Source: Candidatus Naiadarchaeum limnaeum
Lineage (GTDB): Archaea > Undinarchaeota > Undinarchaeia > Undinarchaeales > Naiadarchaeaceae
Assembly: GCA_014189685.1 (NCBI GenBank)
Contig: DVAB01000038.1
Coordinates: 1-36,245, forward strand
Direction of reading: 5' to 3'
Length of the DNA: 36,245 bases
Shown: piece by piece, positions 3,558 to 31,942 of the stretch
Position numbering within the stretch: position 1 is the first letter of the stretch
How the letters are laid out: the number at the start of each line of letters is the position of its first letter
Position numbers and translations under genes: made by a program
Notes under the pieces: generated by a model
Told to the model about the DNA's origin: nothing
The model's database searches: none
What the model saw: only the letters and a program-made list of their open reading frames with translations

Positions 3558-4490
3558 ATGAAAAAAGTATTGGTTACAGGCGCAGCCGGCTTTATAGGCA
3601 GCCATCTATGCGAGGCTTTACTAGAGCGCGGAATTGAAACAATTGGAATTGACTGCTTTACTGATTACTATCCTCGTGCAATTAAAGAAAAAAATATTTC
3701 TGCTTTCAAATCAAATAAAAAATTTAAATTTATTGAAGCAAATCTCCTGAATTATGATTTAAAAAAACTTGTTTCAGATGTTGACACTGTTTTTCACTTA
3801 GCCGCGCAGCCTGGAGTTCGCTATTCGTGGGAAAACTTTCAGGTTTATTTAGAAAATAACATTCACGCAACGCAAAAATTGCTCGAGGCGTGCAAAGAAA
3901 AAAAACCGCAGTTTGTTTTTGCAAGCTCCAGTTCAGTTTATGGAAATGCCCCGCTTCCAATAACAGAAAATATTTCAACAACACCCATCTCTCCTTATGG
4001 ATTAACAAAAGTCAGCTGTGAAAATCTTTGCAAACTTTATGCTCAAGAATTTAAGATACCAACAATTGTTCTGCGCTATTTCACAGTTTATGGCCCAAGG
4101 CAGCGCCCTGATATGGCAATTTATAAATTTTTTAACTCAATAATTGATGGAAAAGAAATTGAGGTCTATGGAGATGGAAATCAAACTCGTGACATGACTT
4201 ATGTTTCAGATATTATTGACGCAACTCTGCTCGCAGGGGAATTTGAAACAGATTACTTAGTTTTTAATATTGGAAGCGGAGTCAGAACAAAATTAAAAGA
4301 TATTATTCATATAATTGAAACTCTCACTGGAAGGGAAGCAAAACTTAATTATAAGCCAGCTGCTAAGGGCGATATGAAAGATACTTGGGCAGAAATTGGA
4401 AAAGCAAAGGCATATTTGAACTATGAGTCCAAAGTAAAATTGGAAGAGGGACTAAGCAATTATCTTAATTGGTATATGAAGAACAAATGA
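3558..4490 (+). CDS. NAD-dependent epimerase/dehydratase (extended SDR; UDP-sugar epimerase-like)
   Basis: VTGAAGFIGSHLCEALLERG, SSSSVYGN, SPYGLTKVSCE (YxxxK). Confidence 0.93.
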   Translation: MKKVLVTGAAGFIGSHLCEALLERGIETIGIDCFTDYYPRAIKEKNISAFKSNKKFKFIEANLLNYDLKKLVSDVDTVFHLAAQPGVRYSWENFQVYLENNIHATQKLLEACKEKKPQFVFASSSSVYGNAPLPITENISTTPISPYGLTKVSCENLCKLYAQEFKIPTIVLRYFTVYGPRQRPDMAIYKFFNSIIDGKEIEVYGDGNQTRDMTYVSDIIDATLLAGEFETDYLVFNIGSGVRTKLKDIIHIIETLTGREAKLNYKPAAKGDMKDTWAEIGKAKAYLNYESKVKLEEGLSNYLNWYMKNK

Positions 4491-6481
4491 GCATGTTAAA
4501 CGAAGCATTTTCTGAAATTAAAGAAAAGAAATGGCTCTATACCCTATTATTTGTTGCAATTTTAATTGGCTTAACTTTGCGTGCTTATCATACTGATTAT
4601 CCAGTTGTTGGCTATCACAATTGGAAAGAAACTCATTATTTAACAGAAGCAAGAAATTTTGCGCGCGATGGATTTTTCAAATACGGATTTTTTGTTCCAG
4701 CATATAACTATCCACAGTTGAGCTCTGATCCAACCGGCGCGCATGCAGATACGTTTCCTTTTATTTCAGTTGTGCTTGCAATTTTTTTCAAAATTTTTGG
4801 CCCAAGCCTAACAGTTGCACGTGCAATTAATATCTCTTTTAATCTTTTAATTGTTCCAGCAATATTTTTGTTTGTGCGCAGATTGTTCAGGAGAAATGAC
4901 ATTGCGCTTGTTGCAGCTTTTACCACTTCTATAACCCCCTTATTGGTTTTCTTCTCGCATAACACACAGTTGCAAAATCCAGGACTGCTTTTTATGGTTT
5001 TAGCTGGGTACTTTTACATTCGCTGGTTTGAAAACGATCTTGATTTAGATTTAATTTTAACATCGGTATTTGTTGCTCTATCTGGCCTTACCGTTTTCAC
5101 ATTTCTTGTAATTTTATTCCCAATAGTGCTCACATTTCCATATGATAGAATAAAGCGTTTTACCCTTACACGATTGAAAACTTATGCAATTTCAGCTGCT
5201 ATTCTTTCAACTGTTTTGTTGTGGGTTTTATACATGCAATTTGCAGTAATTCCGCGCACAGGAATCTCAACAATAAGCGAGAAGCTTTTGAATCTTGCGC
5301 CGCTCTATGCAGGACAGTTTTGGCAAATAATCCGCAGCTATGCAGCCGATAACTATACACTTTTTGGAGCTGTCCTTACATTTATTGGAATATTTTCTTT
5401 TCTATCATACTACTTTAAAGAAAGAGGAATGTTTGGAAAGAAAATTGCAGTTCCGGTCATCCTTGCCACACTAATAATTGTTCCACTTATTGCGTGGAAG
5501 GCACAGTTTAAAATTTTATATCTGATTATCTTTGCAGTTCTTGCAGTTTTAGCTCTGCCAATATTTAAACGCGAAATATCCCATAAAGCTAATTCCTTTG
5601 CATCTTTGAGCGTCAACGAGAAGATGGGAGAAAGCTCTGCTTTCGATCCATTTAAGTTTATGCTTGCCTATGGTATTGGTGCGGCAATATTTTTCATGCT
5701 ATTGGCAGAAAAACTTTCAGGGCACTCCTACCACCAATATCCAATTGCACCATTTTTCATAGTTTCAATTAGTTTTGCAATTATTGCAATCGGAGAAAAT
5801 ATTGGTTCGGTTTTATCAGCTAAAGTCCAGCCCGCAGGGGATGAGGAAAAACTTGGAAGGGAAGATGTTTTTAAAATTTTAAAATATTTTGTCGCTTTTA
5901 TCTTAGTTATCTTTTTAGTATACGGCCCGCCAGGTGGGGCAGGAAAAGTTTCTGAAACTCTATTGGGGACAAATTTAGCTCTAAGTGGCTCTCTTGAAGC
6001 AAAGAATAGACAGTTTGATACGCAACTTCCTGGGTCAGATATTGCAGGGGAGTACATTCAGAAAAACTCAAACCCCGCGGATAGAATTTTGTTCTCAGGC
6101 GGAGAAATAATGGGATTGCTCTGGCATTCTGACCGCAAAGGATTTTATGGAATTTCAAGTGTAGATGTTATTAAAAAAGCAGAGGAAAAAGGAGTTAAGT
6201 GGATACTCCTCTACCCTCCCCTAGGAAGGAACGAATTGAACAACGAAGGAATTCTCTCCTACCTAAAAGAAAATTATGGACTAAAGCAGGTAGCTTTTGT
6301 TAAATCTGGAGAAAATTTCAATATAATTTACTTTTTATTCAAAAAAGGAGGGACTTTTGATCCTGACAAACTTTCCGAGCTTGTTCAGGATTATGCTGTT
6401 GCAAGTAAAGATTATGAGCTCACAGGTGAAAGAAGAATATCTCTTGGATATATAACTTTAGATAATAAAACTGCCTCTTAG
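4487..6481 (+). CDS. GT39/ArnT-like multi-pass membrane glycosyltransferase
   Basis: Many TM helices; LRAYHTDYPVVGYHNWKETHYLTEARNFARDGFFKYGFF acidic first loop. Start refined to 4487 (ATGA overlap with upstream stop) instead of ORF-track 4469. Confidence 0.8.
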   Translation: MSMLNEAFSEIKEKKWLYTLLFVAILIGLTLRAYHTDYPVVGYHNWKETHYLTEARNFARDGFFKYGFFVPAYNYPQLSSDPTGAHADTFPFISVVLAIFFKIFGPSLTVARAINISFNLLIVPAIFLFVRRLFRRNDIALVAAFTTSITPLLVFFSHNTQLQNPGLLFMVLAGYFYIRWFENDLDLDLILTSVFVALSGLTVFTFLVILFPIVLTFPYDRIKRFTLTRLKTYAISAAILSTVLLWVLYMQFAVIPRTGISTISEKLLNLAPLYAGQFWQIIRSYAADNYTLFGAVLTFIGIFSFLSYYFKERGMFGKKIAVPVILATLIIVPLIAWKAQFKILYLIIFAVLAVLALPIFKREISHKANSFASLSVNEKMGESSAFDPFKFMLAYGIGAAIFFMLLAEKLSGHSYHQYPIAPFFIVSISFAIIAIGENIGSVLSAKVQPAGDEEKLGREDVFKILKYFVAFILVIFLVYGPPGGAGKVSETLLGTNLALSGSLEAKNRQFDTQLPGSDIAGEYIQKNSNPADRILFSGGEIMGLLWHSDRKGFYGISSVDVIKKAEEKGVKWILLYPPLGRNELNNEGILSYLKENYGLKQVAFVKSGENFNIIYFLFKKGGTFDPDKLSELVQDYAVASKDYELTGERRISLGYITLDNKTAS

Positions 6482-28755: not shown

Positions 28756-29130
28756 CTATTGTCCAAAACCCCAGTAGCAGCCTTTTGCTTTTTTCACATC
28801 GTTACAGATGCTTGGCTCATTTATACTTGAGCAGGTCGCTCCCGTGTTTACAGTTGCTCCACTACAAAGAGGACTGCTCTGTCCAGCATTGTTAAGACTT
28901 GCGCAACCACTGTCTGTCATTCTCACTGTTCCAATACATTTAAATTCAAGGCTTAGATTTGACGCTCCTTCTTCTCCTTCTCCGCTTATATCTGTAATTG
29001 CGCTGCCTGCCCTTCCAAATCCGCCGAGGAAAAACCCAATAACTACAATTATCACAAGTAAAACAACAGCAATCACAGCAACTGTTCCAATAGCAATTTC
29101 TAATCCGCGTTTATTAAGAAGAGCGTTCAT
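28756..29130 (-). CDS. Class III prepilin-like protein, Cys-containing C-terminus
   Basis: MNALLNKRGLEIAIGTVAVIAVVLLVIIVVIGFFLGGFG. Confidence 0.8.
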   Translation of the reverse strand: MNALLNKRGLEIAIGTVAVIAVVLLVIIVVIGFFLGGFGRAGSAITDISGEGEEGASNLSLEFKCIGTVRMTDSGCASLNNAGQSSPLCSGATVNTGATCSSINEPSICNDVKKAKGCYWGFGQ

Positions 29131-29177
29131 TTTTGAGCGAAGCGAGAAAATGCGAGGAAGCTTTGCTTCCGAAGCAT
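29128..29177 (-). repeat. Two-hairpin repeated element, copy C
   Basis: catttt...aaaatg stem, then atgc-ga-ggaagc-ttt-gcttcc-gaa-gcat (29150-29177); same architecture as copies A/B with paired substitutions. Confidence 0.8.
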
Positions 29178-29187
29178 CTTAAATTAA

Positions 29188-29586
29188 TTAGGCTGAGCAA
29201 TCAACAGAAACGTATTGTGTACACTGATAAGAAACTTCTGTAGAATCTTTTGGAGTGCCATCAGCATTCACTCGTTTTACCCCATCTTTATTAAAGTCAA
29301 TATCATATCGATCAGCGCACAAATCTTTATACCATCGATCCCCTGGGACATTTCTTATCTCAGGAGAGCCCAGATTTTTCCAATTTGTATGAGCTGTCTG
29401 GCATTTAATCTGTGCAACTTCCTCTGGGCTTCTTTCTGTAAATCCGCCAAAGATATCTCTAAAGAAGCTGAACCCTCCTATCACAAATCCAATAATCAAA
29501 AATAAAGCAAAAACAGCGAGCGCAACAATTACTAGCATATTTATGCTTAGCTCAACTCCTTTCTTGTTTCTAGTTGCATATTTCAT
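29188..29586 (-). CDS. Class III prepilin-like protein
   Basis: MKYATRNKKGVELSINMLVIVALAVFALFLIIGFVIGGFSFF; preceded by TATTTAAATA (29611-29620). Confidence 0.8.
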   Translation of the reverse strand: MKYATRNKKGVELSINMLVIVALAVFALFLIIGFVIGGFSFFRDIFGGFTERSPEEVAQIKCQTAHTNWKNLGSPEIRNVPGDRWYKDLCADRYDIDFNKDGVKRVNADGTPKDSTEVSYQCTQYVSVDCSA

Positions 29587-29610
29587 TGTTTGTGGTATAA
29601 TTTCTTGGAG

Positions 29611-29620
29611 TATTTAAATA
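29611..29620 (-). promoter_or_regulatory. Putative internal TATA box of the pilin-like operon
   Basis: TATTTAAATA centred about 29 nt upstream of the ATG at 29586. Confidence 0.45.
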
Positions 29621-29812
29621 TTAGCCGAAACCCTCTATAATTGCGTTCCCAAGGTTTGCAATTTTTCCGCTTATTATAAGCGCAAGCACAACTCCCAGGA
29701 TAACGAAAACAAGTGCTATTATAATCCAAAACATTTCCACATCTGCTTTTTTATGTCCCATCCAGGACATACGAGGACGCTTTGCGTCCGAAGTATTCTC
29801 AATTACTCTCAT
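29621..29812 (-). CDS. Class III prepilin-like small protein (true start 29812, 29770 or 29761)
   Basis: (MRVIENTSDAKRPR)MSWMGHKKADVEMFWIIIALVFVILGVVLALIISGKIANLGNAIIEGFG; N-terminal part is encoded by hairpin repeat copy A. Confidence 0.7.
   Translation of the reverse strand: MRVIENTSDAKRPRMSWMGHKKADVEMFWIIIALVFVILGVVLALIISGKIANLGNAIIEGFG
29752..29796 (-). repeat. Two-hairpin repeated element, copy A
   Basis: tatgtcc-catcca-ggacata, overlapping atac-ga-ggacgc-ttt-gcgtcc-gaa-gtat (29769-29796). Confidence 0.85.
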
Positions 29813-29814
29813 TT

Positions 29815-29943
29815 TTATCCAGGAAGTCCAGTAACCACTCCATAAATCAAGTTCCAAAAAGCCAGCAAAACAACTAGCGCAACAAGAGCAATTGCTATTC
29901 CAACTATCCAGTTTAATGTAAGTTCTACCCCTCTATTGCTCAT
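29815..29943 (-). CDS. 42-aa class III prepilin-like micro-protein (not in ORF track)
   Basis: MSNRGVELTLNWIVGIAIALVALVVLLAFWNLIYGVVTGLPG*; start overlaps the upstream gene's 3' end. Confidence 0.78.
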   Translation of the reverse strand: MSNRGVELTLNWIVGIAIALVALVVLLAFWNLIYGVVTGLPG

Positions 29944-31093
29944 AGTCACTTATGATTACCTCTCCAATTCCATCACCATTTGTATCCTCTAGTCTTGTGT
30001 AGTAGGTTTTTTCTTGCCCTGGCAAAACGTTTAGTTGGCTTGCCTTAATATTATCATTTGTAAACCCTTCCCCTATTCCCAGAAAGATAGTTTTAGGAGT
30101 AAGAATTGGTCTTGCTCCACAACCTTTAAAACCGGAGTACTTAGAATCTAAATGTGTATAAGTAGCTCCTATTTCTGATGCAAAATCATTAAAGCGGGAT
30201 GTATCCCTGACACCGACATTGGCATTTGGCAGTCCGTTGAAAGTTTGATACCCAGTATCTTCATTATAAAAACATTTGCAGAATCTTGTCTGGTCTGGCC
30301 CTGAGCCCTCTTGCTGGCATCGTGATATCATTGTTAAAGTCATTGTTGTTTCTGTGACTCTGCTGAAAGTTATATTGCACCAATTTGGGTCAAATTGATA
30401 ACCACAAACATAGTTGCTTCCTTTACCATCTCCAACAACAACCTCACAGTCTTTTTTATTAGCAGCAGTTAATTCCGCATCGGTCCATATTGCTTGCTGC
30501 GCTAAATAAGTAGAACAGCTTCCGCGTACAAGAACACTCCCTGGCTCCTCAACAGTTACATTTAGCTTAAAAAGATTAAATTTCCTGCTATCTATTGTGC
30601 GTTTCTCATAGCCAGTTCCTCTGCCACCCTGCAAAGTGTAGAAAGTATCCACAGCTCTTCTATAAACGCAGTCAGCAGTTAAATCAGCTGTAGCTTTTTT
30701 TCCAATTGTAATAGGACAGAAATCTGGAAAGTTTTCAATGCAAGTATCTGTTTCGATTTTTATAAATTTCGCAGCTTCTTCACTTGCCCAATCAACAGGA
30801 CCCTCAATAAATACCTTATGCACAATACCGGTGAATGGATTGAGTACATACTCCCACCACTGCGTTTCCACTTTTTCTTGTATATCATTTTTTTTCTCAT
30901 CCACTTTTTGATTAAACTTATTCTTTAATTCTATTGTTGCCTTGCACTGCCCTTTTACGATTGAGCCTGTGGAAACAGCAGCAACTCCGCCGCTAAAAGC
31001 AATTGCAACAACTCCTATCAGAAGTATGATTACAACTCCCCCGACTATTGCAACCGCACTTGAATCAGCTCTTACATTTCTTAATTCTCTCAT
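29933..31093 (-). CDS. Class III prepilin-like protein with large Cys-rich ectodomain
   Basis: MRELRNVRADSSAVAIVGGVVIILLIGVVAIAFSGGVAAVSTG followed by a Cys-rich region (DTCIENFPDFC, GSCSTY, YVCGYQF, NWCNITF, RFCKCFY, GCGARP). Confidence 0.75.
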   Translation of the reverse strand: MRELRNVRADSSAVAIVGGVVIILLIGVVAIAFSGGVAAVSTGSIVKGQCKATIELKNKFNQKVDEKKNDIQEKVETQWWEYVLNPFTGIVHKVFIEGPVDWASEEAAKFIKIETDTCIENFPDFCPITIGKKATADLTADCVYRRAVDTFYTLQGGRGTGYEKRTIDSRKFNLFKLNVTVEEPGSVLVRGSCSTYLAQQAIWTDAELTAANKKDCEVVVGDGKGSNYVCGYQFDPNWCNITFSRVTETTMTLTMISRCQQEGSGPDQTRFCKCFYNEDTGYQTFNGLPNANVGVRDTSRFNDFASEIGATYTHLDSKYSGFKGCGARPILTPKTIFLGIGEGFTNDNIKASQLNVLPGQEKTYYTRLEDTNGDGIGEVIISDYEQ

Positions 31094-31743
31094 ACCAATC
31101 TTATCCCTGCTAAATTCAATATTACAAATATAGCCGCGCCTGTAATAAAGTTTGTAATTATAACTGCTGCGAATCCTTTTAATTTTGATATATTATGCGC
31201 AGTTGAAATAGCATTTGCCATTATGTAGATTAGCCACAGTGAGAATATTATAAAAAGCATAGGAATTATTTGTGCGAGCTGTGAAAGATATGTTGGCTCA
31301 AGTATATTCCCGGTATTTAGCGCACTTATTGTTTCCAAAACTTTGAGGTAAAGCCATACGTTTACAACTATTGAAGCAGTTGCCTGCACAAAATTCAATG
31401 ATTTTGCATAGCAGAAAAATGAAAATGTCTCATAGAATTCTCCGCTACCCCCAAGTTTCAGTGCAATCAAGTTTGCAATATAGGCAATTAGCACTAAGCT
31501 GAAAAATTCTATGCCCAAAAATAAAATGGCATTTCCAAGGTTTAGAATAGTTCCGAAGCCAAACTGAACTGCCATTATGTTAATTCCCAGCAGTTTGGTG
31601 AAAAATCCAAAAGTTAGTAATGAAACCACAGACACAATAAGAAAAATTATAACCCCGTCTTCTCCTGTGATATTCCCTTTTAATTCCTCAAATGCCTCGC
31701 CTGGCTTAAAAATTATTTTTGGGATTATGCGCAGCGATATCAT
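31090..31743 (-). CDS. Yip1-like multi-pass membrane protein
   Basis: MISLRIIPKIIFKPGEAFEELKGNITGEDGVIIFLIVSVVSLLTFGFF; about 5 TM segments. Confidence 0.7.
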   Translation of the reverse strand: MISLRIIPKIIFKPGEAFEELKGNITGEDGVIIFLIVSVVSLLTFGFFTKLLGINIMAVQFGFGTILNLGNAILFLGIEFFSLVLIAYIANLIALKLGGSGEFYETFSFFCYAKSLNFVQATASIVVNVWLYLKVLETISALNTGNILEPTYLSQLAQIIPMLFIIFSLWLIYIMANAISTAHNISKLKGFAAVIITNFITGAAIFVILNLAGIRLV

Positions 31744-31780
31744 GTTATCTTCTAACTTTCCTTGCTTTAAATTATTTTCC

Positions 31781-31942
31781 TCAAACCTTGAACAAAGTTC
31801 TGAAAAGCAATATGCTCAAAAGCGCAATGGCAATAATCACAATTATCAAAACTACTGATTCAAAAATATCCATTTGTGCTCTCCTATGTCTCATCAGAGA
31901 CATACGAGGACGCTTTGCGTCCGAAGTATTCTTTGAATTCAT
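31781..31942 (-). CDS. Up to 53-aa class III prepilin-like micro-protein (not in ORF track)
   Basis: MNSKNTSDAKRPRMSLMRHRRAQMDIFESVVLIIVIIAIALLSILLFRTLFKV*; N-terminal part encoded by hairpin repeat copy B, internal ATGs give shorter forms. Confidence 0.7.
   Translation of the reverse strand: MNSKNTSDAKRPRMSLMRHRRAQMDIFESVVLIIVIIAIALLSILLFRTLFKV
31885..31929 (-). repeat. Two-hairpin repeated element, copy B
   Basis: tatgtctc-atca-gagacata overlapping atac-ga-ggacgc-ttt-gcgtcc-gaa-gtat (31902-31929). Confidence 0.85.

Follow-up and report, generated by a model that had tools for sequence, protein, structure and literature searches.

Introduction

The palindromic elements of Rickettsia and Wolbachia are small inserts that are tolerated in genes and in RNA loops; they are longer than the element described here, lie in frame within open reading frames (ORFs), and we know of no transposase for them. 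Start-codon-sequestering switches in 5' untranslated regions (5' UTRs), i.e., riboswitch expression platforms and RNA thermometers, rely on mutually exclusive stems that free or hide the AUG or the Shine-Dalgarno (SD) sequence. Repetitive extragenic palindromes (REPs), together with bacterial interspersed mosaic elements (BIMEs) and REP doublets forming hairpins (REPINs), are GTAG- or CGTC-tagged imperfect palindromes of short length; they are scattered over a single genome, at times as pairs or arrays, and are located mainly downstream of genes (PMC3733652). In archaea, T-loop position 59/60 is a known tRNA intron site, and tRNA introns are known to spread between tRNAs (PMC4090602); the same position is the junction of permuted tRNAs in Thermofilum (PMC3218864). 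Here we describe a two-hairpin palindromic element of Candidatus Naiadarchaeum limnaeum, found in contig DVAB01000038.1 of assembly GCA_014189685.1 (36,245 nt, the whole of which is referred to as the window), where a first-pass annotation had placed three copies at gene junctions of a pilin operon.

Each of these systems resembles the element in part. Unlike REPs, BIMEs and REPINs, it has neither a tag nor a REP-associated tyrosine transposase (RAYT), is locked in one orientation to start codons, carries compensated stem changes and occurs in tRNA T loops. It differs from the Rickettsia and Wolbachia elements in lying mostly at the start codon and in its two-stem competition, and from the 5' UTR switches in that it has no ligand-binding core, precedes many unrelated genes, is also found in tRNAs and is not in Rfam (no match above the gathering score for five element-bearing loci, both strands). 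It shares with archaeal tRNA introns the T-loop position 59/60 in otherwise intact tRNA genes; unlike them, it has no bulge-helix-bulge that we could find, and the same two-hairpin module also stands at mRNA start codons. The family is not a REP and not a known Rfam RNA. Gene starts are usually avoided by dispersed palindromes, which keep no precise register with them. In this archaeon, by contrast, the start codons of core genes (TBP, RNA polymerase, ribosomal protein, exosome, proteasome) are joined directly to members of a single family, with what would be a built-in choice of exposing or hiding the AUG. Working leaders would amount to a translation switch in archaea that is genome-wide and flexible in sequence; if the element is excised, it would represent a new type of intron. 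tRNA genes with no apparent substitute are interrupted by this module as well.

A structured hairpin family across the genome

The assembly searched is a small, deep-branching archaeal genome (984 kb, 98% complete), of which the window is contig 22 (C22). Hairpin A denotes the hairpin lying 5' on the gene strand (hairpin 2 of the first-pass annotation) and hairpin B its partner (hairpin 1); the pilin-operon copies, also lettered A, B and C, are distinct from these. A covariance model of hairpin A (R1), trained on 14 copies, yielded 19 matches (E 2.4e-12 to 2.6e-4), and a model of hairpin B with the loop TCG-N4-6-CTC (R2) recovered approximately 21 loci at E < 0.01. Combined, the two models gave about 30 loci genome-wide, and some 23 of these shared one orientation, with the start codon ATG within or just 3' of the 3' arm of hairpin B. 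The three copies first described are all present, and the covariance-model search that had been proposed as a check brought further structured copies to light, a fourth, degenerate copy in the window among the additions to that count. With a relaxed pattern in which stem positions were free, we obtained extra copies with different, still-pairing stems (e.g., GGAAAT..ATTTCC, GGAATT..AATTCC and GGAAC..GTTCC), and a search for a stem around TCG-N3-7-CTC located the same start-codon hairpin B behind other types of 5' hairpin. Within the window, the core CGAGGANNNTTTNNNTCCGAAG occurred three times at up to 3 mismatches versus 0.23 expected, with 0/100 shuffles reaching three. A scan of viral contigs for this core returned no match.

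The family layout can be written X-A-X'-B-X over about 37-110 nt, where X is the border, typically AAATG, whose 3' copy is the start codon, and X' is its central complement. In class A1, hairpin A has a UUC/UC internal loop and an AAA loop; hairpin B mostly has the loop UCG-N4-6-CUC. On the gene strand this reads ATGC-TTC-GGAAGC-AAA-GCTTCC-TC-GCAT-TTTC-TCGCTAACGCTC-GAAAATG, the final ATG being the start codon, and on the opposite strand G-A mismatches flank the apical helix of both hairpins (GA/GA in B, GA/GAA in A). Across the 14 training copies of hairpin A, 96.2% of pair cells were paired versus 84.7% after shuffling; 6 of the 10 pairs changed on both sides, and 15 double-change cells were counted versus 3.0 in the shuffled sets, most of the varying stem positions having been free in the search pattern, so that this covariation was mostly not selected in. 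Sliding the register by 1-3 columns lowered pairing to 50% or less. In the hairpin B alignment (A3), 92.4% of cells were paired versus 68.0% when shuffled. Its inner loop pair, which unlike part of the outer stem was not a membership criterion, covaried (C-G 12, U-A 5, U-G 1) and paired in 18/19.

The compensated stem changes and the invariant TTC/TC internal loop noted earlier for the three pilin-operon copies can be seen in the sequence. Covariation of hairpin 1 also stands, but its conserved loop TCG-N4-6-CTC, near-invariant in most copies, present in copy C and absent from A and B, had gone unnoticed. As for the selection on structure proposed on these grounds, what is supported is either such selection or copying of the structure.

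Position at start codons and competing stems

At the hairpin B loci of this genome, the ATG lay 0-8 nt past the loop in 14/20 cases versus 0/26 in other archaea (Fisher p = 1.6e-7), several of the 26 foreign loci coming from one family and not being independent. The genes behind the element encode TBP, RNA polymerase A' (rpoA'), archease, a thiolase-like protein, a DNA polymerase II large subunit-like protein, purD, mtnA, a peroxiredoxin-like protein, rpl5, rrp4, the proteasome, PhoU-like regulators and pilins; names were read from translated sequence, except where confirmed by Pfam (RNA polymerase A'). Given the copies before TBP, rpoA', rpl5 and other genes, the pilin operon is not special. 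The original framing of the element around that operon (stoichiometry, differential expression) is not supported, since most copies precede unrelated housekeeping genes or interrupt four tRNA genes, while its link to gene starts is upheld by the genome-wide placement.

Stems A and B claimed the same 2-6 nt in 16/17 copies measured, a tRNA copy included. This agrees with the 3 shared nucleotides reported previously, which we find in copies A and B, with up to 6 in C. In a recurrent ATG-CAT-ATG layout, the central CAT has two possible partners, the upstream ATG and the real start codon. The sequences show that a structured, genome-wide family exists, that its stems covary and that A and B claim the same X' nucleotides. 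When positions -62 to +38 were folded, the start codon was predicted to be unpaired with a mean of 0.32 in element leaders versus 0.49 over 374 genes (p = 0.007). The A state was predicted to be favoured in the thiolase-like and mtnA leaders, and the B state in the archease, C28 and PhoU-like leaders. The stem overlap and these folds point to mutually exclusive stems that may control access to the AUG or SD sequence. Genome-wide, sequestration of start codons by upstream complements (7-mers) was found at 6/372 first ATGs versus 14/1677 internal ATGs, and is at most a weak effect in a subset of genes.

The commonest TATA-box position in the genome is 25-29 nt before the ATG, which suggests that many mRNAs of this archaeon are leaderless. 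In those listed element genes that have a box, it is mostly a near-consensus TATA 33-42 nt before the 5' border of the element; therefore both hairpins should be transcribed and so be present in RNA. Several other copies sit between genes of operons. SD-like sequences up to about 20 nt before the ATG were present in 9/23 genes, near the genome-wide rate of 30%, e.g., AGGAG in the rpl5 copy, where it occupies the loop, and AGAGGTGATC in the peroxiredoxin-like copy. Most of them lie within hairpin B, which argues for translation of a leader that still contains the element, at least in SD-bearing genes. SD sequences at the upstream border were considered as proof of insertion and set aside, as they did not differ from ordinary genes (p = 0.35). 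An upstream-ORF leader peptide (MLRKQSFLAFSR...) was ruled out, the C12 and C32 copies having a stop or no ATG in frame.

Insertions into tRNA T loops

Four tRNA genes, with anticodons read by eye as Lys(CTT), Ala(GGC), Arg(TCG) and a Leu-type, are interrupted by the module in the T loop, at position 59/60; the loci are C21:5020-5062, C6:2094-2182, C25:9279-9366 and C7:69370-69478, and ARAGORN misses all four. The Leu-type gene apparently has an anticodon intron as well. tRNA-Lys(CTT) differs from its intact paralogue tRNA-Lys(TTT) by a 35-nt T-loop insert (GCTCTCGCGAGCATTTTCTCGCAGAGCTCGAAAAT), one D-loop base and the anticodon, and this comparison of sequences establishes, at one locus, a clean insertion versus an empty paralogous site. 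Direct repeats of 4 nt (AAAT) flank the insert in tRNA-Lys, and the mtnA copy lies between 9-nt direct repeats (CATGAAAAT). Neither Ala(GGC) nor Arg(TCG) had a second gene among the tRNAs read, a missing contig being possible; the interrupted Ala(GGC) and Arg(TCG) genes should therefore be functional. No bulge-helix-bulge could be drawn at 59/60 in the four tRNAs at any splice register; most canonical anticodon introns likewise escaped the strict scan. The T-loop inserts are the strongest evidence for the element as an insertion.

Occurrence in other archaea

The hairpin B model matched in 70/299 archaeal genomes. This widespread hairpin, with its CTCGCTACGCTCG-type loop, shares the loop motif and inner pair with hairpin B of our element, but was at a start codon in none of the 26 loci checked. 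Judging from these loci, the start-codon use of hairpin B is restricted to this lineage. The closest relatives compared are of order level. In a scan of relatives, the hairpin A model gave just two matches in genome G017 and a weak one in G024, none at a gene start; in the order-level relatives, the T-loop pattern gave single-mismatch matches only, none with tRNA context. In a tree of RNA polymerase A', our genome formed a long, unresolved branch situated between the DPANN groups and the remainder.

Two further observations concern hairpin B elsewhere. The motif apparently occurs within or beside tRNA genes of two other archaea (G135 and G192), in G135 apparently in an anticodon-loop intron, and genomes of one archaeal family (f43) contain as many as about 21 copies each, many being CACCTCCTCGCTACGCTCGGAGGTG located between genes.

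A candidate two-state leader and its alternatives

We favour, with a probability of roughly 0.45, a lineage-specific family of palindromic insertions that is transcribed and, at translation starts, serves as a leader with two states. A palindromic element would have inserted and spread across the genome, and at gene starts would work as a transcribed leader. Hairpin A, transcribed first, would take X' and leave the AUG open; if hairpin B took X' instead, the AUG would be closed, and the two states together would form a translation-initiation switch, with hairpin B in some copies carrying the SD sequence. Several points weigh against this proposal. The element-bearing genes have no obvious common pathway, the predicted folds are not all sequestering (probability unpaired 0.00-0.73), and relatives in the order have no significant hairpin A copies. 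Direct repeats at most sites are just 3-6 nt and irregular. The covariation of the outer stem of hairpin B is partly built in, since members without a link to hairpin A were partly chosen for a stem of at least 5 bp. Moreover, a pure translation-leader function does not account for the copies at C3 (in a 5' UTR, ahead of the real start), C51 (at a start but antisense) and C22:5622 (within an ORF).

Such copies, away from start codons or within ORFs, fit a reading in which the elements are purely selfish or neutral dispersed palindromes, comparable to miniature inverted-repeat transposable elements or to the Rickettsia elements. This is the main rival, which we regard as somewhat unlikely. The palindromes would land at AAAT(G) and survive where harm is small, i.e., before start codons (the genome being compact), in frame in ORFs and in RNA loops, with agreement of the stems arising from flank copying or palindrome correction rather than from function. 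The four tRNA T-loop insertions, one of them with its clean 35-nt paralogue comparison, fit this account, as do the modular variants C45:4259 and C51:17039, each extended by two hairpins, and the wide occurrence of hairpin B in intergenic DNA of other archaea; the tandem GA mismatches of the opposite strand, placed around a GCNNNGC-type mini-hairpin, may additionally suggest a very stable DNA hairpin. On the other hand, the start-codon register (14/20 versus 0/26) is far tighter than insertion at intergenic ATG or AAAT would lead one to expect, hairpin B holds SD sequences in several genes, and there is no obvious transposase, Y1_Tnp being absent. The last point tells equally against a REP/BIME-type element spread by a RAYT (Y1) transposase, which is very improbable in spite of the short imperfect palindromes in several, sometimes arrayed copies: PF01797 had no match in this 98%-complete genome, while the same search was positive in 5/14 control genomes, inspection of alignments A2 and A3 revealed no conserved GTAG or CGTC tag beside the hairpins, and the elements stand at gene starts, in contrast to the mainly intergenic or downstream location of REPs (PMC3733652). 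A dispersed element had been among the roles first suggested and came nearest to what we find, although the REP/BIME label fails on both transposase and placement.

The tRNA copies also bear on the possibility that the element is an intron-like insertion excised from RNA, common to tRNAs and mRNAs, with X' as an internal guide pairing with both borders. Removal would restore an intact T loop or an AUG junction, e.g., TAAATGGCA at the thiolase-like gene. In the set of tRNAs read, the interrupted Ala(GGC) and Arg(TCG) genes apparently have no substitute with the same anticodon and so must work, all four inserts fit the known archaeal intron position 59/60 (PMC4090602), the same X' pairs with both borders, and some genes (rpl5, rpoA') have SD-like sequences 5-10 nt before the upstream border. 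Against this, excision would remove the SD sequences within hairpin B, and we saw no copy interrupting a coding frame in the middle of a gene, which excisable introns would be free to do; the failure to draw a bulge-helix-bulge at the tRNA inserts is a weaker objection, given that the scan missed most canonical introns. We hold excision to be improbable, and likewise its variant in which removal proceeds without a bulge-helix-bulge and the element would be a new kind of mini-intron acting on tRNA T loops (59/60) and mRNA starts. The notion of a regulator setting pilin stoichiometry or processing had drawn on three strong copies in one operon, two of them near-identical; it is contradicted by the genome-wide spread of the element, mostly before unrelated housekeeping genes and in tRNAs, and retains very little credibility.

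Copies in the window and variant copies

The positions and hairpin drawings given by the first-pass annotation match the sequence, all copies being on the minus strand. In copy C (29128-29177), hairpin A is AAGATGC-TTC-GGAAGC-AAA-GCTTCC-TC-GCAT (model E 1.4e-11) and hairpin B is CATTTTC-TCGCTTCGCTC-AAAAATG (E 7.5e-7), whose 3' end is the start codon of a prepilin-like ORF (28756-29130, minus strand, 124 aa, MNALLNKRGLEIAIGTVAV...), for which Pfam gave no match. Copy A (29752-29796) has ATAC-TTC-GGACGC-AAA-GCGTCC-TC-GTAT as hairpin A (E 2.6e-10) and TATGTCC..GGACATA as hairpin B, the 5' foot of which holds the start codon of the downstream 49-aa hydrophobic ORF (29621-29770, minus strand, MSWMGHKKADVEMFWIIIALVFVILGVVLALI...). 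Hairpin A of copy B (31885-31929) is identical to that of copy A (E 2.6e-10), and its hairpin B, TATGTCTC..GAGACATA, likewise holds in its 5' foot the start codon of a downstream hydrophobic ORF, of 40 aa (31781-31903, minus strand, MSLMRHRRAQMDIFESVVLIIVIIAIALL...). Copies A and B form one 71-nt repeat with 83% identity. The fourth, degenerate copy (5601-5653, minus strand) consists of ATGG-ATC-GAAAGC-AGA-GCTTTC-TC-CCAT (hairpin A, E 7.5e-6) and CATCTTC-TCGTTGACGCTC-AAAGATG (hairpin B, E 2.6e-5), and lies in frame and antisense inside a 670-aa PMT-domain ORF (4469-6481).

More elaborate arrangements were seen elsewhere in the genome. Variants at C45:4188-4289 and C51:16967-17070 have two added hairpins (GCAAAGGAAT..ATTCCTTTGC and CGCGAAACC..GGTTTCGCG) between hairpin A and the CTCGCTTNCGCTCAAAGATG part. 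In C28 (1751-1890 of the extracted locus), a multi-hairpin element directly follows tRNA-Ala(CGC) and is closed by the long stem ATTTAATaTCGG/CCGAcATTAAAT. Finally, in C51 (7242-7282 of the extracted locus), two perfect hairpins lie within a GlmS-like ORF, in frame (RNPRFRYPQTKFAVKK), in the manner of in-frame palindromic insertions.

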